Positions 2,607 through 20,139 of a stretch of DNA of 20,715 nucleotides are shown piece by piece. Each line of letters starts with the position of its first letter. The stretch's first letter is position 1. The stretch covers positions 1 to 20,715 of the IMG/VR virus record IMGVR_UViG_3300021246_000044, one strand, 5' to 3'. The DNA comes from a virus. The notes below the pieces were generated by a model. That model was not told the origin of the DNA. It saw nothing but the letters and a program-made list of their open reading frames with translations, and searched no databases. Made by a program: the position numbers and the translations under genes.

Positions 2607-2891
2607 ATGAAAATCAATCTAGAAGTCACCGCACTCGATGGCGGCGTCAGCAAATGCACGGCACAGTTCGCCGACTTCATCGCCTTCGAAGGCGAGAAGA
2701 ATCGTTCTGTCGCAAACTTCCAAACAGAACTACGCCTCACCGACCTCGCCTGGTTGGCGTGGCATGCGGAGAAGCGCACGAAGAAGACCGCAATGAAGTT
2801 TGAAGAATGGATTGAGACAGTTGAGAGTGTGGAGGTTGGAACCGACTCTGCGGTGATCAACCCTTTGGAGAGTCCTCAGCCCACTGGCTGA
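2607..2891 (+). CDS. Tail assembly chaperone, short form (gpG-like)
   Basis: 94 residues, ribosome site AGGAGG at 2596-2601, ATG 2607. It sits between the major tail gene and the tape measure, where tail assembly chaperones occur. It starts MKINLEVTALDGG and has a helical middle (LRLTDLAWLAWHAEKRTKK, MKFEEWIETVESVEV) like other actinophage chaperones. These proteins coat the tape measure before tube polymerisation and are not in the finished virion. Near the 3' end a slippery heptamer at 2861-2867 allows a -1 shift into an overlapping frame with no start codon of its own, giving the longer form described in the next entry. Confidence 0.75.
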   Translation: MKINLEVTALDGGVSKCTAQFADFIAFEGEKNRSVANFQTELRLTDLAWLAWHAEKRTKKTAMKFEEWIETVESVEVGTDSAVINPLESPQPTG

Positions 2892-3022
2892 TCGCATACC
2901 TCGCCTGCGAGACACACATAGCACCATCGGTGCTACTACAAGAATCACCTAGAATGCTTTATACGATGCTCGGCTATCTGCGCTGGAAGAGTGTCAAGAT
3001 GAATCCGAACCAAAGGATCTAG
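2607..3022 (+). CDS. Tail assembly chaperone, long frameshifted form (gpGT-like)
   Basis: Predicted product of a programmed -1 frameshift, join(2607..2867, 2867..3022), 138 residues. In the zero frame the bases at 2861-2867 read C CCT TTG, fitting the X XXY YYZ slippery rule; after the slip the tRNAs would re-pair on CCC and TTT. The -1 frame then continues GESSAHWLIAYLACETHIAP and on to a segment YTMLGYLRWKSVKMNPNQRI, ending at TAG 3020-3022, three bases before the next gene. That extension has the W/Y/L-rich helical look of gpT-type domains, and the region 2892-3024 would otherwise be an empty gap in a tightly packed operon. The gpT part recruits tail tube subunits to the tape measure in lambda. 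The shift is inferred from sequence and has not been measured. Confidence 0.75.
2861..2867 (+). other. Slippery heptamer CCCTTTG for -1 frameshift
   Basis: The zero-frame phase is C CCT TTG, which matches the canonical X XXY YYZ pattern. It lies nine codons before the zero-frame stop (2889-2891) and inside the overlap with the open -1 frame that ends at 3022. I did not identify a clear downstream pseudoknot by eye. Confidence 0.75.
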
Positions 3023-3024
3023 TT

Positions 3025-3573
3025 ATGGCCTTCTCAGCGTTCCCGAATCTGCCAGGTGACACAGGTGGGACTCTTGGTCGTGCCGGCACCGCCGCAGTCG
3101 CAGGCAACACAGTCGTAGTCAAAGACCTGTTTGAGACTCTACGGAAGTTCTCAAAGGCTTCTCCGCAGTTCAATAAAGAGATGCGCAAAGTCGCCTACAC
3201 GGTGGCAAGAGACTTAGAATCAAAAGTGAAACTTGAAGCAACCACGGTCAGTCGAGCCAGTCAGGCGATACAGGTCGCGAAAGGTTTACGGGCAAGCAAT
3301 GACCGTATCCCGACAATCAAGTTGCGTGGCAAGGAATCGTTCGTGTCGAAGTCTCGTCCGAATAGTAAACGCAAAACTAAGGTGACTCGTGCCGATGTGT
3401 TCTTCGGTGCGGAGTTCGGTGGTGGTGCTAGACCGACCACAAAACAATTCTTAAGACATCGAGGACAGTCGGGCTACTTCTTCTGGCCTACCGTGCGGAA
3501 GCAAAAAAACGCCATAGCCAAGGAATACCTGGATGGCATGGATCGTGTGGTCAAAGAACTGGGCATCGGCTGA
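3025..3573 (+). CDS. HK97 gp10-like tail/neck protein
   Basis: 182 residues, ATG 3025, three bases after the end of the frameshifted chaperone frame. The middle is helical (DLFETLRKFSKASPQFNKEM, KVAYTVARDLESKVKLEA). The C-terminal half has VTRADVFFGAEFGGG, then a Q/R/H-rich loop, GYFFWPTVRKQK and a last helix (AIAKEYLDGMDRVVKEL). This matches the HK97 gp10 family, in which a basic helical start is followed by a 'P..WR/FWP' strand and a final amphipathic helix; the family functions at the head-tail neck or in tail completion. In HK97-like genomes it usually comes before the tail terminator, so its place after the chaperone gene is shifted. Its ribosome site is weak (AAGGAT), so coupling to the frameshifted product is likely. 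Confidence 0.65.
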   Translation: MAFSAFPNLPGDTGGTLGRAGTAAVAGNTVVVKDLFETLRKFSKASPQFNKEMRKVAYTVARDLESKVKLEATTVSRASQAIQVAKGLRASNDRIPTIKLRGKESFVSKSRPNSKRKTKVTRADVFFGAEFGGGARPTTKQFLRHRGQSGYFFWPTVRKQKNAIAKEYLDGMDRVVKELGIG

Positions 3574-3576
3574 TAC

Positions 3577-3604
3577 TTGCATTCGGCTCAGGATTCGCTA
3601 TCCT
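3577..3604 (+). promoter_or_regulatory. Candidate promoter with overlapping inverted repeat, upstream of the AEP-like gene
   Basis: A TTGCAT (3577-3582) and a TATCCT (3599-3604) are separated by 16 bases, an acceptable sigma-A-like arrangement with an actinobacterial TAnnnT -10 box. The -10 lies in an inverted repeat: TCAGGAT at 3588-3594 and ATCCTGA at 3600-3606 with loop TCGCT, extended by GG/CC at 3585-3586 and 3608-3609. This could be an operator or an RNA hairpin just before the ribosome site AGGAGG (3611-3616). It is one of the few non-coding gaps in the tail operon. Confidence 0.45.
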
Positions 3605-3625
3605 GAACCTAGGAGGTTCTGCACA

Positions 3626-4339
3626 ATGTTTGAAGTCGTCGGGTTTTCATCGGTCAAATCCATCTACCCGAAGACCATCGCCACATCTTGGATGGACTTT
3701 GCAGCGATGCTCGGCAATCATCAAGAACGAGCAAACAAGTCTGACGGTTCGCTGTACTCGCCAGTCACCTATCGTGAACATACAACTCGTGGCAACCGCA
3801 ATGTGCAACACATCTGGGCGTTGGTCGCCGACCTTGACGGCGAAGCATTCGAGCAGGCTGATCTCGGATCGTATATACATTTTGCCTACACAACCTGGTC
3901 ACATCGCAAAGACAATCCTCACTGGCATATCGTTGTCCCATTTGAGCAGGCTGTGCCGGTACAGAATTGGGAAGAAGTTTGGTATGAGACACATGAGCGT
4001 CTTCGTCTCAAAGGCGACCCAGCGACTAAAGACCCAGCGCGTATCTTCTACTTGCCACAGCATGAGGCTGGTCAGGAGTTCCGCACACATCATTCAGGTT
4101 GGCGATTCCTTGATCCGACCATCACCGATATTGCAGCACCGACACGCACATTCTCCACACCAAACATCCGCACAACTCGTCAGCCGCGTCGTGGTAATCC
4201 GATGCGCTGTGTTCTTGACCCGAAGTGGTGGGATGCTCCAGTCGACTTATCAAAATATGATGGTATGACACAAGAAGAGATTCATCTTGACATGCAACGC
4301 GAGTGGGCTGAACTGCGTAAACGGATGCTCGCTAACTGA
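3626..4339 (+). CDS. AEP-superfamily (primase/polymerase, Rep-like) protein embedded in the tail operon
   Basis: 237 residues from ATG 3626, chosen over an in-frame ATG at 3533 because AGGAGG (3611-3616) stands nine bases before it and because the earlier start would lie inside the gp10-like gene. Three motifs fit the archaeo-eukaryotic primase fold in order: ALVADLDG with D69 and D71 (metal-binding DxD), NPHWHIVVPF with H99/H101 (nucleotide-binding motif II), and KDPARIFYLPQ with D136 and R139 (motif III). The spacing and the 'YTTWSH' strand before motif II match replication-protein AEPs of phages and plasmids. No helicase, zinc-binding or PriCT domain is attached; the C-terminus (TQEEIHLDMQREWAELRKRM) is a helix. 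It likely makes primers or polymerises DNA, which is unrelated to tail building. Neighbours on both sides are tail genes. A degenerate non-catalytic role is possible. Confidence 0.65.
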   Translation: MFEVVGFSSVKSIYPKTIATSWMDFAAMLGNHQERANKSDGSLYSPVTYREHTTRGNRNVQHIWALVADLDGEAFEQADLGSYIHFAYTTWSHRKDNPHWHIVVPFEQAVPVQNWEEVWYETHERLRLKGDPATKDPARIFYLPQHEAGQEFRTHHSGWRFLDPTITDIAAPTRTFSTPNIRTTRQPRRGNPMRCVLDPKWWDAPVDLSKYDGMTQEEIHLDMQREWAELRKRMLAN

Positions 4340-4356: not shown

Positions 4357-6444
4357 ATGGCAGGTGAGCGCACATTCGTTGTAAAGATTCTCGGCAATGC
4401 CGACGGTGCTATTACGGCGTTCAAGAACCTTGCCCGCGAAGGACAACAATCCATTGAGAAGGTTCAATCCATCGGTGCCGGACTTGGCAAAGCATTCGAC
4501 TTCGTTAAGAAGGGTGCGTTCGTTGCGCTCGGTGCATTGACCGCGGTTGGTGGTGCAGCAGCAGCTGCGGTCGCAGCGGCGGCAGCCGACGAGAAGTCGC
4601 AGAAGAGTCTTGAAGCACAGTTGATTCGTTCTACTGCGGCAACAACCGCACAAGTCCAAGCAACCGAAGCATTCATTCAACAGGCAATGATGGCGACAGG
4701 TATCGCCGATGACGAACTTCGTCCAGCGTTCGGCAATCTTGCCCGTGCCACAGGTGATCTAGAGAAATCTCAGCGTCTGTTTGCACTTGCACTTGACATA
4801 AGCGCAGCGACAGGTCGTGACTTGGAGGCCGTCACATTGGGCCTCGGTCGTGCGGCGACGGGCAACATTGGCGCACTTACAAGACTCGGAATCCCGCTCG
4901 ATGAGAACACTAAGAAGAGCAAAGACTTCGGTGCTGCACTCGTAACTTTAGAGAAACAATTTGGTGGTGCATCAGCAGTCGCAGCAGACACATTCTCTGG
5001 ACGAGTAAAGATATTGAAGACATCGCTCGGCGAAGTCGTTGAAGAGATCGGCTATCAACTTCTGCCGGTCGCCGAAAAATTGGTTGGATTCTTACAAAAG
5101 AATCTGGTTCCCGCGTTGCAGGCTGCGGTCAGAGGTTTCAAAGATGAAGGCATAAGCGGCGCAATCAAATACTTTGCCGCCGCATTCGGTCAAACCTCAA
5201 TCAGTGTCCTCAATTCGATTGAAGGCATGATCCTTGGATTCGTCAAGTTTGAACAAAAGATTGTTGATACTTTCAAAATTGGTTTTGCTGTCATTGACTT
5301 CTTTCGAGCATTCACAAGTGCGGTCACAGGCGGAGATGGAATCATCACAGTTGAACAGATGCTCATCAACCGAACAGAGAATGTAAGCAAAACATTCGAT
5401 GATTTACGGGCATCAGTTCTAAACACTCGAATTGCGTTAAACCTTCAAGGTAACACTTTGTCAAAGTTCATTGATCAGACTGACAAGATTGGTGGCAAAG
5501 TATTGCCGAAGGTCAAAGAATCAACAGATGAATGGAATACTTCGCTTGATGATTTGAAGACGAAAGCTGGTGGTGCGGCGAAAACTGTTGAAACTTTCAA
5601 ACAAAAGTTTGAAAAGTACACGAGCGCGTTGAAGTCGTCAACATCTGCACAAAAGGCGTTCACGAATGCGCAGAATGCGTCAACCAAAGCGCAACTTGGT
5701 TTGGATCAGGCAAACACTGATCTTGCGACGGCACAAGAAAACTTCAATCGTGCGGTTGCTGGATATGGTGTCGATTCTGCTGAAGCGAAAGCTGCTCAGC
5801 GTGAACTAGCCAAGGCTCAACGCAATGTTGCTCAGGCTGGGTTCAGTGTTGAAGAGGCCGTATTTGCGGTTCGTGACGCTGAATTGAAACTTGCCGAACT
5901 TAGAGCCGACCCGGCTTCAAGTGCGCAAGCAATTCGTCAAGCAGAGATTGATCTTGCTCAAGCGAAGTTGGCTGTTGCTGATGCAAGTGATGCCGAATAT
6001 GAAGCGACGAACGGTTTGGAAAAAGCTCAACTTGCATTGAACGAGGCGGTAAGTGGTGCGATTGCAGGCTCGGCGACATATAACCAGTTCTTGGAAGCGT
6101 TGAATGATGCTAAAGAACGGCAAGAATCTGCATCAGAAGCTTTGACAAGTGCGCTTGAGCGCGAGACTGAGGCGTACACAAATCTGGCTGAGGCGATAGC
6201 GAAGGTTGCTGAGGCAGCTCGTACTATGCCGAACGCAAATCTTGCCATTCCGACTTTGCCGACTGTTCCTACACCGATGACAACGACTGGTGGTGGTACT
6301 TCGACTGGTGGTGCCGGTACGAACATCACGATCAATACGGGTCTTGGCACGAACGGTGTTGAGGCTGGTCGGCAGATTGTGGAAGTGTTGCAGTCATATT
6401 CGCGGATCGCTGGTAACAACTTCCTTGAGTTCGCGGTTGCGTAA
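4357..6444 (+). CDS. Tape measure protein
   Basis: 695 residues, by far the longest tail gene. The start (ERTFVVKILGNADGAITAFK) is a standard tape measure opening. Residues ~50-80 are an alanine/glycine-rich hydrophobic stretch, followed by a helical domain with repeated GxxxxA patterns and another hydrophobic region around 270-320 (YFAAAFGQTSIS, GMILGFVKF, IGFAVIDFF). Residues ~410-625 form a long alanine/glutamine-rich coiled coil with imperfect repeats such as LAKAQRNVAQA and LAQAKLAVADA. The end is Thr/Gly-rich, then a short domain. At about 0.15 nm per residue the tail would be near 100 nm long. There is no Shine-Dalgarno; TAGAAT at 4341-4346 ten bases before the ATG may be a -10 box for a near-leaderless transcript. 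The second half is G/T-rich, whereas the next gene is C/A-rich. Confidence 0.9.
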   Translation: MAGERTFVVKILGNADGAITAFKNLAREGQQSIEKVQSIGAGLGKAFDFVKKGAFVALGALTAVGGAAAAAVAAAAADEKSQKSLEAQLIRSTAATTAQVQATEAFIQQAMMATGIADDELRPAFGNLARATGDLEKSQRLFALALDISAATGRDLEAVTLGLGRAATGNIGALTRLGIPLDENTKKSKDFGAALVTLEKQFGGASAVAADTFSGRVKILKTSLGEVVEEIGYQLLPVAEKLVGFLQKNLVPALQAAVRGFKDEGISGAIKYFAAAFGQTSISVLNSIEGMILGFVKFEQKIVDTFKIGFAVIDFFRAFTSAVTGGDGIITVEQMLINRTENVSKTFDDLRASVLNTRIALNLQGNTLSKFIDQTDKIGGKVLPKVKESTDEWNTSLDDLKTKAGGAAKTVETFKQKFEKYTSALKSSTSAQKAFTNAQNASTKAQLGLDQANTDLATAQENFNRAVAGYGVDSAEAKAAQRELAKAQRNVAQAGFSVEEAVFAVRDAELKLAELRADPASSAQAIRQAEIDLAQAKLAVADASDAEYEATNGLEKAQLALNEAVSGAIAGSATYNQFLEALNDAKERQESASEALTSALERETEAYTNLAEAIAKVAEAARTMPNANLAIPTLPTVPTPMTTTGGGTSTGGAGTNITINTGLGTNGVEAGRQIVEVLQSYSRIAGNNFLEFAVA

Positions 6445-8952: not shown

Positions 8953-9221
8953 GTAACTACGCAGAAATAGTTGAAAGCATCGTTGTCAATGTAATCGTTG
9001 CTGACGCAGATTTTGTAGCGACACAAACCGACAAAAATTATGTTTTATGCGATCGCGGCGGTATCGGCTGGACATACGACGGCACAAACTTTATTGCACC
9101 ACAACCGTTTGCATCTTGGGTGCTTGATGAAAATTATGATTGGCAACCACCAACACCGAGACCTTCGACTGGTGGACCATACGAGTGGAGTGAAGAAGAT
9201 CTTGAGTGGGTCGCCATCTAA
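8949..9221 (+). CDS. Small fibre-linked phage protein (90 aa)
   Basis: Coupled to the glycine-rich gene by ATGA at 8949-8952. The beginning, YAEIVESIVVNVIVADADF, matches a common short phage protein pattern ('yAei...iVvNvIvad..f') found next to tail fibre genes in many freshwater and marine phages. The second half is rich in aromatics and prolines (GWTYDGTNF, SWVLDENYDWQPPTPRP, GPYEWSEEDLEWV). The proline/tryptophan end recalls domains attached to fibres or fibre-assembly chaperones. No biochemical role is established that I know of. A small virion accessory or chaperone for the neighbouring fibre is the best guess. Confidence 0.6.
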   Translation: MSNYAEIVESIVVNVIVADADFVATQTDKNYVLCDRGGIGWTYDGTNFIAPQPFASWVLDENYDWQPPTPRPSTGGPYEWSEEDLEWVAI

Positions 9222-10678
9222 CTAGGTGGCTGATTCCGCTACCTGCGATCGTTTTGTCGTTCTGGCCGACGCTTGTTCGCGCCGAAGTACAGCCAGGTTT
9301 GCAGACGACCTATTACACGATTGACGCAATCCCACCAATCCAGTCGACTACCGAATATCCGATGTGCGGATCAGAGGTTGAGAACAATATCAATCGCAGT
9401 TATGACGGCGAACCATTCGAGGACTGCACCGGCGATTTGTTCATGGTTCACATGACAGGCTTCATCGACATACCTGAGCATGAAACGATTGAGTTCTGGT
9501 TGGCGTCAGATGACGGCGGCGAGATAACTATTGATGGCAACACATTCGGTGTTTGGTGGGATCAAGGATGCTCGGCCACACTCTCAGGCAATCTTGACAT
9601 CGAGTCAGGCAGTCAGCCACTCGAATTGTGGATGTACGAAAACGGCGGTGGAACTTGTTTGATGTTGGCGTGGAAAATTGATGACGGTGATTGGGAGATG
9701 GTTCCGGACTCGGCGTTTACACAGCAGGCTGGTTCAACAACCACGACCACAACCACAACATCAACAAGCACCACCAGCACGACGCTTCAAGAATCCACCA
9801 CAACGACTTCAACTTCTTCTTCCACAACTTCAACATCTACAACACTCCCTCCCACAACAACGACCACAACCAGCGAACCAGTTCAGTCAAGCACAACCAC
9901 ATCAACGACAAGTACCACGACAACGACGACCACAACTGTCGCACCAGCTCCGACAACAACGCAAGCACCCTATACGCCTCCTCAAACTACGACGACTAGC
10001 GAACCAGTCGCGTCAACAACTTCAAGTACAACGACCACAACTTCTTTACCTGAACCCGAAACCACAGTTGAAGAAACATCGACTACAACCTATCTGCCCG
10101 ATCCTGATCCCATTGTTCCTGAATCTTCTTCAACTCTTCCCGCCGAAACAACGCCGCAAACAACACAGCCGACGCCAGAAACAAGTACGCCACAAACAAC
10201 AGAATCAGAAGTAGAGAGTTCATCAACCACAACGCTACCCGAATTAGGTGAACCAATAAGCGATGAGAAGGTTGAAGAGATTCTGACCGAATTAAAAGAT
10301 GCGCTACCGGCACAAATAGTCGCAGCCATCGAACAAGTTCTCGCAAGCAACATCACGACCGATCAGGCGGTGAATATTGCGTCGAGTCCTCAGGTGTTGG
10401 CGGCGATAACTCAAGACCAAGCCGAAGCGATATTCGAGCAGATCGTCGTAGAAGAACTCACAGTCGAGCAAGCCGACGAACTGGTCGCGGCCTTAAACGA
10501 AGCACCAACGAAAGTCAAGAAAGCATTCCAAGAAACAATCAATGTGTTTACGGGCTTGTTTGATTCATTCCAGATGGTGGGCCAGACGATACCTGTTGGT
10601 GAGCGTAGAACTTTGGTCGCCGTATCAAATACACTTGTGGCGGTAGGAGCAAGCCTGCGCAGAAGAGAAAACAAGTGA
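9206..10678 (+). CDS. Secreted PA14-like, Thr/Ser-rich surface protein
   Basis: 490 residues from GTG 9206, overlapping the previous gene by 16 bases; no ATG lies before the signal sequence. Residues 1-26 look like a Sec signal peptide: basic MGRHLTR, hydrophobic WLIPLPAIVLSFWPTLV, cleavage after VRA. Residues ~30-165 resemble a PA14 domain (FIDIPEHETIEFWLASDDGG, then ITIDGNTFG and LELWMYENGGGTCLMLAWK, here split into parts), a carbohydrate-binding beta barrel. Residues ~177-340 are a threonine/serine/proline linker. Residues ~345-490 carry helical repeats on the pattern 'LT.EQA..L...' and end with VGERRTLVAVSNTLVAVGAS and a basic tail. Exporting a phage protein this way is unusual for a virion part. 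It may coat the infected cell, bind glycans or act in lysis. The style resembles wall proteins of Acidimicrobiia. Confidence 0.6.
   Translation: MGRHLTRWLIPLPAIVLSFWPTLVRAEVQPGLQTTYYTIDAIPPIQSTTEYPMCGSEVENNINRSYDGEPFEDCTGDLFMVHMTGFIDIPEHETIEFWLASDDGGEITIDGNTFGVWWDQGCSATLSGNLDIESGSQPLELWMYENGGGTCLMLAWKIDDGDWEMVPDSAFTQQAGSTTTTTTTTSTSTTSTTLQESTTTTSTSSSTTSTSTTLPPTTTTTTSEPVQSSTTTSTTSTTTTTTTTVAPAPTTTQAPYTPPQTTTTSEPVASTTSSTTTTTSLPEPETTVEETSTTTYLPDPDPIVPESSSTLPAETTPQTTQPTPETSTPQTTESEVESSSTTTLPELGEPISDEKVEEILTELKDALPAQIVAAIEQVLASNITTDQAVNIASSPQVLAAITQDQAEAIFEQIVVEELTVEQADELVAALNEAPTKVKKAFQETINVFTGLFDSFQMVGQTIPVGERRTLVAVSNTLVAVGASLRRRENK
9731..10230 (+). repeat. Low-complexity ACN-rich tract encoding a Thr/Ser-rich linker
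   Basis: The strand is dominated by ACA, ACC and ACG triplets (threonine codons), with runs such as ACAACCACGACCACAACC, mixed with serine and proline codons. Synonymous codon mixing means the DNA is not one simple tandem repeat. Such tracts are prone to slippage and length change. Confidence 0.75.
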
Positions 10679-13101: not shown

Positions 13102-13472
13102 GCGACTACGGAATTGTTGATGTCTGGTCGGAGTCGAAGAATGTATTCGAACTGCTCCGACCAGAATGGCAACAGTACGGCACATGCCGTGGCGAAGGCA
13201 CCGATATCTTCTTTCACGAAAGATATTTGCATGCGGTGCGTGAAGCGAAGAAACTTTGCGACATCTGCGTGGTGCGCCAAAGTTGTCTAGACTTTGCAAT
13301 CAAGAACGATTGTGTCGGCGTGTGGGGCGGACTGACAACAGTTGAACGAAGAAACGAGATACGACGACGAAGGAGATCAGGCGACTATGTCAAATCCACA
13401 AAGAAGAAAAGGTACGCGCGCCGAATTGATGGTGGCGAAGTTCTTCCAAGACCACGGACATCCGAGAGCTGA
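13098..13472 (+). CDS. whiB: WhiB-family iron-sulfur transcription regulator
   Basis: 124 residues, start ATG 13098 coupled to the upstream membrane gene. Four cysteines in the WhiB order hold a 4Fe-4S cluster: C30 (GTCRGEGTDIFF), then C54, C57 and C63 (LCDICVVRQSC). They are followed by the WhiB turn GVWGGLT (residues 74-80) and a basic segment ERRNEIRRRRR that contacts DNA or the sigma factor. WhiB proteins occur in actinobacteria and their phages, and phage copies can repress host whiB genes, as shown for WhiBTM4. This is the best evidence for an actinobacterial host. The C-terminal ~30 residues are basic and overlap the next gene by 86 bases, so their conservation may reflect the other frame. 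C72 is an extra cysteine. Confidence 0.95.
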   Translation: MSDYGIVDVWSESKNVFELLRPEWQQYGTCRGEGTDIFFHERYLHAVREAKKLCDICVVRQSCLDFAIKNDCVGVWGGLTTVERRNEIRRRRRSGDYVKSTKKKRYARRIDGGEVLPRPRTSES

Positions 13473-13764
13473 ACGATCTAGGTCAGGCTGGTCAGATGAC
13501 CGTGGCGATATAGACGGCGTCAAGGATCTGACCGTAGAAGTCAAAGACCAACGCCGACACGACATCGGTTGCTGGTTGAAAGAACTGGAGATTGAGCAAA
13601 AGAACCGTGGCACAAACCATGGTGTTTGCGCAGTCAAGAAACAAGGCGCAGTCGAAGTAGACACCTGGTATGCAATCATGACGATGACCGAGTTTCTTAA
13701 ACTTTGGAACGCCTACAAGAAAATTGATGACAGTCCCGCATCCGCGCACACCGATCCGATATAG
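13387..13764 (+). CDS. Holliday-junction-resolvase-like endonuclease (Hjc/RecU-type PD-(D/E)XK)
   Basis: 125 residues from ATG 13387, chosen over an in-frame ATG at 13342 because AAGGAG (13370-13375) precedes it and the nuclease motif begins soon after. RKGTRAELMVAKFF has E13 in the first helix. GDIDG with D41, then LTVEVKDQ with E51 and K53, form the PD-(D/E)XK active site. WLKELEIEQKNRG follows, a helix typical of archaeal Hjc-like and phage resolvase-like nucleases. It likely cuts branched DNA formed in replication or packaging. It overlaps the WhiB C-terminus out of frame by 86 bases, which is long for this compact genome. All catalytic residues are intact. Whether it prefers junctions or flaps cannot be told. 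Confidence 0.75.
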   Translation: MSNPQRRKGTRAELMVAKFFQDHGHPRAERSRSGWSDDRGDIDGVKDLTVEVKDQRRHDIGCWLKELEIEQKNRGTNHGVCAVKKQGAVEVDTWYAIMTMTEFLKLWNAYKKIDDSPASAHTDPI

Positions 13765-13792: not shown

Positions 13793-13807
13793 CTAGGAGG
13801 CCTGCAC
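13793..13807 (+). promoter_or_regulatory. Leader module copy 2 (AGGAGG...CTGCAC) before RecB-like gene
   Basis: ACTAGGAGGCCTGCAC precedes ATG 13808. The same TAGGAGG + pyrimidine(s) + CTGCAC block is found before the AEP-like gene (3610-3625) and the gene at 17051 (17036-17050). The AGGAGG part is a plain ribosome site; conservation of CTGCAC next to the start codon is the unusual part. Confidence 0.6.
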
Positions 13808-14857
13808 ATGCTCGAAGAAACCCGACAAGAAGCACCGAAAGATCGGTGGGGTCGATACCTCGTCACCACACCTGACGGCAAACAACGCGGCTACACACGA
13901 GTCACAACAATCGCAAAAGCACCAGACGACGAAGCCGCATTGAAACAATGGGCGAATCGAATGGTCGTCACCGGACTAATACAACGCTCCGACCTACTTG
14001 CGCAAGCATCAACAAAACTTGACGACAAGAATGCGTTGAACAGAATCTGTGAAGAAGCAATCACCGCAGGTGGCGGATCAGCCCGCGCCAACCTCGGCAC
14101 AGCATTACACGCAGTCACCGAAGCAGTTGACCTCGGCAAGAAACCACAAATCCTGCCAGGCTTGCAACCCGACATCGATGCCTACACGGCGACACTCGCC
14201 AAGTACGGCGTTCACATCATGCCGAACTACATCGAATCGGTGGTCATCAATGACGACTCAGAATATGCAGGCACATTAGATCGCATAGTCGAGGTGGATG
14301 GCCGAATGTACATCGCCGACCTCAAAACCGGCACCGACCTCACCTACTCGTGGCGGTCGATAGCAATTCAGTTGGCTGCATACGCCGACGCGCAATGGAT
14401 ATACAACTATCAGACCGCTGAGCGAATCAGCTTGCCGATGATCGAAAAAGACCGTGCCATCGTGTTTCATCTACCAGCAGGTGAAGGACGCTGCGACCTG
14501 TACTGGGTTGACCTCAATGCAGGCCGTGAAGGTTTGGCACTCGCGCTCAATGTTCGTGCTTGGCGTAAACGCAATGATCTGAACGAACGCTTTGAAGAAG
14601 CCAAGATTGTCAAACTTGACACAGGTCTTGATAAGCGTCGCGACTGGATGACCGCACGAATCAAACATCTACCAGAGAAGGCACAGAAGATGTTGCGCTC
14701 ACTGTGGCCTGTTGATGTGCCGAAACTTGGTGAAGCCGACAACGAACAAATAGACCTACTGATTCGCATTGTCGGTCTGCTTGAAGCGGAACACAATGTG
14801 CAGTTCTTTGAAACAGATCCAGCGACAAAGGTTGGTCGCAAGAAGGCAAAGAAATGA
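13808..14857 (+). CDS. RecB/Cas4-like PD-(D/E)XK exonuclease
   Basis: 349 residues from ATG 13808, with ribosome site AGGAGG at 13796-13801; an earlier ATG (13724) lies inside the previous gene and is less likely. The nuclease core is clear: GTALHAVTE with H101, YAGTLDRIVEVDGRMYIADL with D158 (acid after the GTxD turn), then ADLKTG with D171 and K173, followed by the QLAAYA helix typical of RecB-family nucleases. Such enzymes degrade duplex or single-stranded ends and supply 3' ends to recombination proteins. The C-terminal ~100 residues are helical and of unknown role. Its partner may be the SSB-like gene downstream; no recombinase is seen here. It ends in an ATGA overlap with the next gene. 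Confidence 0.85.
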   Translation: MLEETRQEAPKDRWGRYLVTTPDGKQRGYTRVTTIAKAPDDEAALKQWANRMVVTGLIQRSDLLAQASTKLDDKNALNRICEEAITAGGGSARANLGTALHAVTEAVDLGKKPQILPGLQPDIDAYTATLAKYGVHIMPNYIESVVINDDSEYAGTLDRIVEVDGRMYIADLKTGTDLTYSWRSIAIQLAAYADAQWIYNYQTAERISLPMIEKDRAIVFHLPAGEGRCDLYWVDLNAGREGLALALNVRAWRKRNDLNERFEEAKIVKLDTGLDKRRDWMTARIKHLPEKAQKMLRSLWPVDVPKLGEADNEQIDLLIRIVGLLEAEHNVQFFETDPATKVGRKKAKK

Positions 14858-17035: not shown

Positions 17036-17050
17036 TAGGAGGTCTGCACA
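17036..17050 (+). promoter_or_regulatory. Leader module copy 3 (AGGAGG...CTGCAC) before the gene at 17051
   Basis: TAGGAGGTCTGCACA runs directly into ATG 17051. It is nearly identical to the block at 3610-3625 and to the one at 13795-13807. The 18-base gap after the preceding stop holds almost nothing else. Confidence 0.6.
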
Positions 17051-17395
17051 ATGGACAAGACAAGCAAACAAATCATTCAAGGCTTGATGAACGAATTGGC
17101 GATAGAACGCCAGCTCGCCGACCAGCTCGCCGAAGCACTCATCGAAGGCGGCATGGACAGACAGTTCGCCGCACTGACATTCCATGAGATCACACGCAAC
17201 GGATTCATGTACCCAGGCATCAAAGTCGGTGACTCACCAGAGTCAAAGCCGAAGAAGCAAGCCAAGCGTGGCAAGCGTTCACCGAACCATCCGTCCGTGC
17301 AATACAAGTGGGCGCGACCCGATCACAAGAACCAAGACTTCTGGATTCAATTCCAGCAAGACAAATCATACGACCAAGATAAGGAGAATGAATAA
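17051..17395 (+). CDS. Hypothetical basic phage protein
   Basis: 114 residues with ribosome site AGGAGG (17037-17042). The N-terminal half is helical (KQIIQGLMNELAIERQLADQ, AEALIEGGMDRQFAALTFHE). The second half is rich in lysine and arginine (SKPKKQAKRGKRSPNHPS) and ends acidic and aromatic. A helical domain with a basic tail suits nucleic-acid binding or a host-takeover protein. I do not recognise a family. It ends in a TAATG overlap with the next gene and has the same leader as the AEP-like and RecB-like genes. Confidence 0.65.
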   Translation: MDKTSKQIIQGLMNELAIERQLADQLAEALIEGGMDRQFAALTFHEITRNGFMYPGIKVGDSPESKPKKQAKRGKRSPNHPSVQYKWARPDHKNQDFWIQFQQDKSYDQDKENE

Positions 17396-18309: not shown

Positions 18310-20139
18310 ATGAGCGTTCTACAGACTGCACTCGCATACGCCAGCAAACAAGTCAGAGTCATACCAATCAAGCAAGGTGAGAAGCGGCCACCGATGCAAG
18401 GCTGGCAAAACGCCGCCACAACCAACCCAGCCACAATCCGACAATGGTTTGAAGGACAGTTCAAAGACTGCGGACTCGGTATCGCAACAGGCGAGTTCCG
18501 TGACCGCTACCTAGTCGTCATCGACATAGACGACCGCGAAACCTACAAAGGCTCAGACACACTCAACGACCTAGAACAACTACACGGCAAACTGCCAGAC
18601 ACAGTCGAAGTCATCACAGGCTCCGGCGGAAGACACATCTACTTCCTCACCGACCAACCAATCCGCAACGAAGCATCAGGCCGACTCGGTGTCGGTATCG
18701 ACATCCGTGCAATCGGCGGACAAGTCCTCGCACCACCAACAGTTCATCCGAACGGCAGAACCTACGAATGGGTTGAAGGTAAATCAATCGCTGAACACAG
18801 ACCAGCCGACATGCCACTGTGGATGGTGCTGATACTCACAGCCAAACCCGCCGAAGAAACACCACCAGCCACACAACCCACACCGATCCTGCTCGAAGAA
18901 GACGGACCAGCATCCCGCTACTGTGCCGCAACCACATGGCCAGAACTACTCCGCCAAGACGGCTGGACACTCGCACACATCGACCAAGCAGGCGAAGCAC
19001 ACTGGGTCCGACCAGGCAAAGACATCAGAGAAGGCACCTCAGCCACCACAGGATGGCAAGGCAAAGACATCCTCAAAGTATTCACCACAAGCATCCCAAG
19101 CCTGCCAGCAGGCGCATACACACGATTCGGCTACACCGCAGCCATGCACCACGGCAACGACCGCTCAGCATTCGCCAAAAAACTTTTACAAGAAGGCAAA
19201 GCACTCGTACCCGTCACACAACCCGCCATCACCGACAACATCCTCATCAACTGGCAAGACTTCTGGAACCAATCATTCCCAGCCGAAGACTGGCTCATCG
19301 AACCCATCATCCCACGCAACCAGCTCGTAGTCATCTTCGCACCAGGCGGAACAGGCAAATCACTACTCGCGCTCTACATCGCAGCCGCACTCGCCACAGG
19401 CAAAGAAATCTTCGCCGAACCCAAACCACCAACCAGCGTCCTCTACATGGACTACGAAATGTCCCAAGCCGTACTCTATGAACGACTCACCGCAATGGGC
19501 TACGGCAAAGACACCGACCTATCCCGACTCCACTACGCCTCACTCCCACCAATCGGATCACTCGACAAACCAGAAGGAGCAAAACAAATCTGCGACCTAG
19601 CACGAGCATGCCAAGCCGAACTCGTAATCATCGACACCTTCGCACGAGCAGTCGAAGGCGCAGAGAACGACGCAGACACAGTCCGCAACTTCTACCGCTG
19701 GACAGCCATGAACCTCAAACAAGAAGGCCGATCACTCATGCGCATAGACCACGCAGGCAAAGACCTCAAAAAAGGCGCACGAGGCACCAGCGCAAAGAAC
19801 GACGATGTCGACCTCGTATGGCAGATGACCAAAGTAGACGGACGCCTAGTCCTAATCCGACAGAAGCACCGGCACACCTGGATACCCGAACGAATCAACC
19901 TCATCATCCACGACCAACACAAAATGTTCACACAAGACATCCAAGGCGGCGAACGACTAACCCAAGCTCTTAAGATGCTAGAAGAACTCAACATCGACCC
20001 AACCATCAGCCTCGACGCCATGTGGGCAGAAGTCAAAGAACGCGCCGAAACCATCTACCATGTCGTCCGCAAAACAGCCCGACAAGCCCACACACAACGC
20101 CGAGAACAGATGCATGACCCGCTCTTTGAACAGTTCTAA
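18310..20139 (+). CDS. Bifunctional primase-polymerase / RepA-like helicase
   Basis: 609 residues, ribosome site AAGGAGG (18298-18304). The N-terminus is a prim-pol domain: VVIDID with D72 and D74, SGGRHIYFL with H109, and VDIRAIGGQVLAPPT-type segment (D131) followed by HPNGRTYEW. Residues ~320-520 form a RecA/RepA-type ATPase: APGGTGKS at 344-351 (Walker A), LVIIDTFAR with D442 (Walker B), then DHAGKDLKKGARGTSAKN resembling the 'H..K......RGs.a' sensor of phage RepA-like helicases. The C-terminus is helical. It would open and prime the origin, probably at the repeats just downstream. Third positions are overwhelmingly C or A (for example 19261-19320: 23 C, 9 G). All key motifs are intact. 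Confidence 0.9.
   Translation: MSVLQTALAYASKQVRVIPIKQGEKRPPMQGWQNAATTNPATIRQWFEGQFKDCGLGIATGEFRDRYLVVIDIDDRETYKGSDTLNDLEQLHGKLPDTVEVITGSGGRHIYFLTDQPIRNEASGRLGVGIDIRAIGGQVLAPPTVHPNGRTYEWVEGKSIAEHRPADMPLWMVLILTAKPAEETPPATQPTPILLEEDGPASRYCAATTWPELLRQDGWTLAHIDQAGEAHWVRPGKDIREGTSATTGWQGKDILKVFTTSIPSLPAGAYTRFGYTAAMHHGNDRSAFAKKLLQEGKALVPVTQPAITDNILINWQDFWNQSFPAEDWLIEPIIPRNQLVVIFAPGGTGKSLLALYIAAALATGKEIFAEPKPPTSVLYMDYEMSQAVLYERLTAMGYGKDTDLSRLHYASLPPIGSLDKPEGAKQICDLARACQAELVIIDTFARAVEGAENDADTVRNFYRWTAMNLKQEGRSLMRIDHAGKDLKKGARGTSAKNDDVDLVWQMTKVDGRLVLIRQKHRHTWIPERINLIIHDQHKMFTQDIQGGERLTQALKMLEELNIDPTISLDAMWAEVKERAETIYHVVRKTARQAHTQRREQMHDPLFEQF

Follow-up and report, generated by a model that had tools for sequence, protein, structure and literature searches.

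The open reading frame at 3626-4339 (+ strand, ATG start, 237 aa) of the 20,715-nucleotide viral DNA analysed here, hereafter the window, almost certainly encodes a standalone protein of the archaeo-eukaryotic primase (AEP) superfamily, an assignment carried by PHROG matches, invariant residues, the AlphaFold2 (AF2) fold and dN/dS. We consider it probable that this minimal AEP is a core gene of the tail operon, transcribed from its own promoter, that serves as an accessory to the PrimPol-helicase of the same phage and whose dosage is limited by repression at the leader.

At least 80 relatives of the gene were found in IMG/VR, on virus contigs that are mostly fragments, with 84-97% protein identity. 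The frame is open in all of them (80/80), with a GTG start in three, and the median dN/dS is 0.096 at dS 0.62 (79 relatives), compared with 0.06-0.16 for the neighbouring virion genes. Because the frame stays open throughout and dN/dS is this low, ORF 3626-4339 is, on its pattern of conservation, a real gene and not a chance ORF.

In the PHROGs database, phrog_9765 (‘DNA primase’) matches residues 24-164 (E=2.9e-15) and the VirE-type phrog_256 matches residues 50-164 (E=1.2e-5). BLAST aligns the protein, collinearly from residue 1, with a standalone ‘DNA primase’ of 314 aa in Phage C48C1 (1e-5), and also with primase-helicases of Staphylococcus phages, in their N-terminal domain. Searches of Pfam and NCBIfam returned nothing above cut-off for the 237-aa protein; the PF09250 Prim-Pol gathering score, which the other AEP of the phage at 18310 reaches, was not reached. 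Neither a PriCT nor a helicase domain was found in it with Pfam, and the 237-aa protein has no AEP-fused helicase domain of the kind that defines replicative primase-helicases (VirE/D5 type). No relative was found in PDB sequence searches with AEP profiles, in a scan of genome contigs or in a viral scan with the homologue of Vibrio phage henriette 12B8 as query, and megablast of the window matched no annotated phage. The protein is best read as an AEP of VirE-N / PHROG 9765 type that is minimal, stands alone and has its catalytic site intact. The catalytic core comprises residues 1-165 (3626-4120), followed by a variable C-terminal tail (residues 166-237, 4121-4336). Within this tail, residues 185-200 are occupied in relatives by alternative blocks (PRRGNPMRC, KSGKWARV or RTSTKKNRH), whereas the core is nearly invariant.

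Across the window and its 80 relatives (81 sequences), D69, D71, H99, H101, D136 and R139 are invariant. A deeper alignment of 37 sequences, combining the AEP with homologues from three phage families (window relatives, C48C1-type and Staphylococcus phage primase-helicases), reduces the invariant positions to W22, L29, N57, D69, D71, Y88, T90, D131, T134, R139, P144 and F152. The motif I acidic pair is thus D69/D71 (codons 3830-3832 and 3836-3838), which is also kept in a sister lineage described below. H101 (3926-3928) occupies the motif II position and is likewise invariant in the 81 sequences and the sister lineage; it is Arg in distant homologues, a replacement of the motif II His that has been reported for DR0530-like AEPs (PMC5862659). 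The motif III acid is D131 (4016-4018), followed by R139 (motif IV, 4040-4042), both invariant over the 37 sequences. The original prediction had recognised motifs I-III from the window alone, and its D69/D71 and H101 hold; its motif III acid, D136, is replaced by Gln in Staphylococcus phages, is therefore not a conserved acid, and gives way to D131. Y49 may provide an aromatic steric gate, as does Y63 in S-2L PrimPol. The PrimPol-PV1 supergroup is described by the clustering of seven families, a conserved flange Arg and a relaxed motif II His (PMC5862659); of this description, an Arg (R139) and a variable motif II are seen in the alignment.

An AF2 model built with 15 close sequences reached a pLDDT of only 34 and was discarded. 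With the 37-sequence alignment, the pLDDT rose to 74 (pTM 0.67) and fell below 50 only at residues 167-173 and 184-205. Searching the PDB with this model gave a single match at E<=0.001, the AEP domain of S-2L PrimPol (6ZP9; E=4.3e-5, probability 1.00), with modest TM-scores of 0.38/0.47. As the input alignment held primase N-termini, the more independent part of this result is the match to 6ZP9 at 13% identity. In BFVD the model had 51 matches at E<=0.001. Names such as VirE, primase or helicase are frequent among them, and the top match, at 45% identity, is a phage protein of 234 aa that is uncharacterised. The protein shows the sequence and fold features by which the AEP superfamily is recognised: motif I, motif II (His or an accepted substitute), motif III with its Arg, and the catalytic fold. 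PHROG matches, motif conservation over three families and the fold search thus agree with the AEP identity, and the AEP core, claimed in the original prediction.

An alternative reading takes the HWH triplet (H99/H101) for an HUH motif and the protein for a rolling-circle Rep endonuclease, as sub-threshold Pfam matches to REP_ORF2-G2P (0.037) and, in one relative, to Gemini_AL1 (0.01) would suggest. However, both histidines are replaced by K/R in the more distant homologues of the 37-sequence alignment, whereas D69, D71, D131 and R139 do not vary, and the fold search ranks an AEP first (E=4e-5) with HUH Rep domains near E=1. We rejected this reading, whose chance we regard as negligible.

The AEP gene lies between two tail genes, as had been stated from the window alone. 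Upstream is a gp10/Neck1-like (HK97 gp10-like) tail completion gene (3025-3573, + strand; a weak match to PHROG 5, E=0.003), and downstream the tape measure gene (4357-6444, + strand; PHROG 4197/34082/1272, E about 4e-6), with gaps of 53 nt and 17 nt, respectively. For an unbiased count, loci were fetched via the head-tail adaptor gene, not via the AEP, and only those with enough sequence were counted; the AEP sits between its two neighbours in 54/54 of these, and both the gp10-like gene and the tape measure are also matched in 51. Its median identity (89.5%) is similar to that of the head-tail adaptor (92%) and the major tail protein (86%) and much higher than that of the tape measure (62%). 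A sister lineage, recovered by way of locus L084 and its divergent distal tail gene, carries an AEP of 41-44% identity at the same site in 8/8 loci that extend to the region, and these AEPs keep DxD, HWH, D131 and R139. More distantly, Pontimonas phage phiPsal1 (distal tail 29%) has no AEP at this site; a 217-aa gene adjoins its tape measure, and by BLAST its product is unlike the AEP and bears no significant likeness to the gp10-like protein.

The gene is present in both the window and sister lineages; it was therefore, on this comparison, already at the site before they split, and has been retained since. The idea of an enzyme ‘stranded’ in the tail operon, whether as an out-of-place insert or a variable moron, consequently does not stand: among related phages the AEP is a fixed core gene (54/54 and 8/8 loci), and its absence was seen in the distant phiPsal1.

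The tape measure diverges strongly in relatives L072, L074 and L076, and also in L010 and L013, where identity falls to as little as about 30-36% or the match is confined to the C-terminal part; the AEP beside these tape measures stays at 84-91%. The tail assembly chaperone pair at 2607-3022 has a canonical -1 frameshift. Its slippery sequence, CCCTTTG (C CCT TTG) at about 2861-2867, is unchanged in 86/86 sequences, and the -1 frame that follows (HWLIAYLACETH...) is also conserved and has no start of its own. The protein encoded at 9206-10678 contains long mucin-like repeats rich in Thr and Ser (TTTTTTSTSTTSTT...) and is partly conserved in relatives.

Directly 5′ of the AEP lies a candidate promoter, TTGCAT-16-TATCCT (3577-3604, + strand; a single match in the window), whose TATCCT is a weak -10. 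This -10 is overlaid by a perfect inverted repeat, TCAGGAT-TCGCT-ATCCTGA (3588-3606; single copy in the window), which resembles an operator. This leader is called type A; a Shine-Dalgarno sequence AGGAGG follows at 3611-3616, with the start context CTGCACAATG (together 3611-3628, + strand). Generic scans performed at chance level, for sigma-70 promoters (9 found vs 14 expected) as for terminators (29 found vs 24 expected). A looser pattern was compared among relatives, TTGnnn-N15-18-TAnnnT, placed so that 12-40 nt separate its end from the start codon. All type A relatives (61/61) have it 5′ of the AEP, as do 6/6 sister loci tested; since the pattern was derived from the window’s own leader, the sister lineage, whose leaders are otherwise unlike it, constitutes an independent test. 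The pattern is absent before the other window genes tested and occurs zero times before each other late gene (up to 80 relatives). The inner 5 bp of the inverted repeat are kept in nearly all of 26 distinct leaders, and in L065 both arms have changed together in a compensatory manner, albeit as a single event. The AEP thus very probably has a promoter of its own, as originally proposed, and the comparative backing comes from both lineages and from leaders of three types that are unrelated to one another. The accompanying claim of a leader shared with early genes survives for one gene: AGGAGGT(T)CTGCACAATG recurs at 17037-17053, before ORF 17051, and before no other. This ORF (17051-17395) encodes a 114-aa protein with no family match.

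The tail-operon position, the 53-nt and 17-nt gaps and the conservation over two lineages would also suit an accessory that is expressed late, together with the tail genes; such a protein might be packaged and leave the virion along with the DNA, or process genome ends during maturation. We regard this as quite improbable, given that the promoter pattern is conserved at the AEP and at no other tail gene and that no virion-type homologue was found. The late-operon position, with no convincing terminator, nevertheless allows read-through expression of the AEP with the tail genes.

In 19/80 relatives the type A leader is replaced by a longer one, type B. Here a TTGC[AG]T-17-TA-type promoter is interleaved with two copies of TTGTCTTAC spaced 21 bp apart, a pair present in 19/19 type B loci and in no type A locus. 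The operon then encodes, directly 5′ of the AEP, a small ribbon-helix-helix (RHH_1, CopG-type) protein of 45-46 aa in most loci (PF01402, 25.0 bits vs a cut-off of 20.5), the stop codon of which overlaps the AEP start as ATGTTTGA in 19/19 loci. Type A loci, that of the window among them, yielded no RHH gene in any other place, and sequence searches gave no significant solved relative of the RHH protein. In type B loci (L009, L012, L020, L075, L080 and others), the stretch that separates the promoter repeats from the RHH gene contains variable small ORFs: one of 60 aa (MQIKHKN...), one of 72 aa (MLKMFRV...), or two short ORFs in L075 and L080. The TTGTCTTAC pair is suggestive, and only that, of an operator through which the RHH protein may repress the operon promoter.

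A small RHH gene overlapping the next start, an operator-like promoter and a weak CopG_antitoxin match of the RHH protein are also what a toxin-antitoxin-like pair would present, with the AEP as toxin. This is highly improbable, as 61/80 relatives and the window carry the AEP with no upstream RHH gene and none elsewhere in those loci, and an RHH protein of only 46 residues leaves little room for a toxin-binding tail.

When mapped onto the AEP tree, the leader type changes at least 14 times, 9 of these changes being forced by well supported branches. On that evidence the leader cassettes have been exchanged, presumably by recombination. Own promoters between late genes are typical of morons, and the AEP has its own transcription signals (the promoter pattern specific to it) while lacking the other moron trait, variable presence among close relatives. 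The locus could hold a conflict gene, with the AEP directed at the host or at co-infecting phages (exclusion or counter-defence) and the leader swaps providing escape from cross-repression by related phages. The moron-like promoter, the at least nine switches of cassette on supported branches, the variable small ORFs that accompany type B and the lack of an obvious need for a second AEP would fit such a function. On the other hand, the AEP is fixed (54/54) and evolves like core genes, unlike most morons, its homologues sit in replication clusters, and PADLOC gave no match; we consider a conflict function unlikely. Of a similarly low probability is a plasmid-like copy-control module, in which the AEP would be a dosage-limited replication factor and the operator/repressor cassettes (the type A inverted repeat, the type B CopG-like gene with its 21-bp repeats, and the sister-lineage type) would be swapped like incompatibility groups, deciding which co-infecting genome replicates.

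Our preferred reading remains an accessory AEP under leader control. The other AEP of the phage (18310-20139, + strand) is a Prim-Pol domain fused to an AAA/RepA-like helicase (PF09250, E=1.1e-41; PF13481, E=4.8e-27); it is also found in 6/10 long relatives, the other four being fragments. The genome further encodes a RusA-like resolvase (13342-13764) and an exonuclease (about 13800-14857). An actinobacterial host can be proposed only loosely, there being a WhiB-like gene in the window and the nearest isolate infecting Pontimonas.

The conserved promoter directly 5′ would give the AEP its own message, independent of the late tail message. The gene may then be repressed, and its dosage limited, by a protein that binds the inverted repeat in type A leaders and by the RHH protein on the TTGTCTTAC repeats in type B leaders. 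The AEP core would most likely polymerise short DNA on phage templates, in accessory priming, restart or gap filling, and would act beside the PrimPol-helicase, the exonuclease and the RusA-like resolvase. Enzymatic activity, a preference for DNA, repression by operator binding and a role in DNA metabolism are all things that we infer; a role in phage DNA metabolism is reasonably likely, and we place little confidence in any more specific assignment. That the 190-residue AEP core of S-2L still polymerises by itself (PMC8065100) means that the window AEP could be an active minimal polymerase. Because PriCT and helicase domains were not detected, unaided priming is doubtful. An argument against our explanation is that the genome already encodes a PrimPol-helicase.

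The locus clearly shows a replication-type enzyme as a fixed resident of a tail operon that is nevertheless, very probably, under regulation of its own, in phages that possess a PrimPol-helicase as well. For biochemistry it provides an AEP core that is minimal by nature, and the interchangeable promoter/repressor cassettes at one site form a natural series for asking why control of a second primase-polymerase is rewired.

The kind of enzyme is known, both as AEPs of phages and mobile elements and as standalone VirE-N AEPs at CRISPR loci (PMC8211822); a limited search of the open-access literature found no description of a fixed, separately regulated AEP in a tail operon. The closest counterparts are the AEPs of PHROG 9765, from Phage C48C1 (CDS0039, 314 aa) and the Vibrio phages henriette 12B8 (VPDG_00043) and V6Aob (308 aa), which are likewise standalone, collinear from the N-terminus and share the DxD / D..T....R / YxP signature. 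Unlike the window AEP, they have an additional C-terminal region, which makes them about 70 residues longer, and carry K/R at motif II. Their genes belong to replication clusters, where a polymerase or helicase is a neighbour; in henriette 12B8 and V6Aob the cluster is T4-like and the gene directly 3′ of the homologue encodes a helicase or P-loop NTPase. The VirE-type primase-helicases of Staphylococcus phages (such as QT1, 816 aa) have an N-terminal AEP domain homologous to window residues 21-164, fused to a VapE/VirE helicase (PF05272) that the window AEP lacks. S-2L PrimPol (6ZP9), the fold match, has its motif residues E85/D87/H118/D146/R157 at a spacing similar to that of D69/D71/H101/D131/R139, the steps between the last four residues being 31/28/11 vs 30/30/8 in the window AEP (PMC8065100); unlike the latter, it also contains PriCT-2 along with other domains, and it is regarded as the only polymerase of phage S-2L. 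CAPP_B, likened here by its published description only, is a standalone VirE-N-type AEP core with no other recognised domains, although it is cellular and located at CRISPR loci (PMC8211822). As for regulation, RepB of pMV158 is a rolling-circle initiator, not an AEP, and no RHH gene precedes the AEP in the window; the type B leaders nonetheless resemble the pMV158 copG-repB operon, in which a tiny RHH gene lies directly 5′ of a replication gene and CopG represses copG-repB (PMC6607859).
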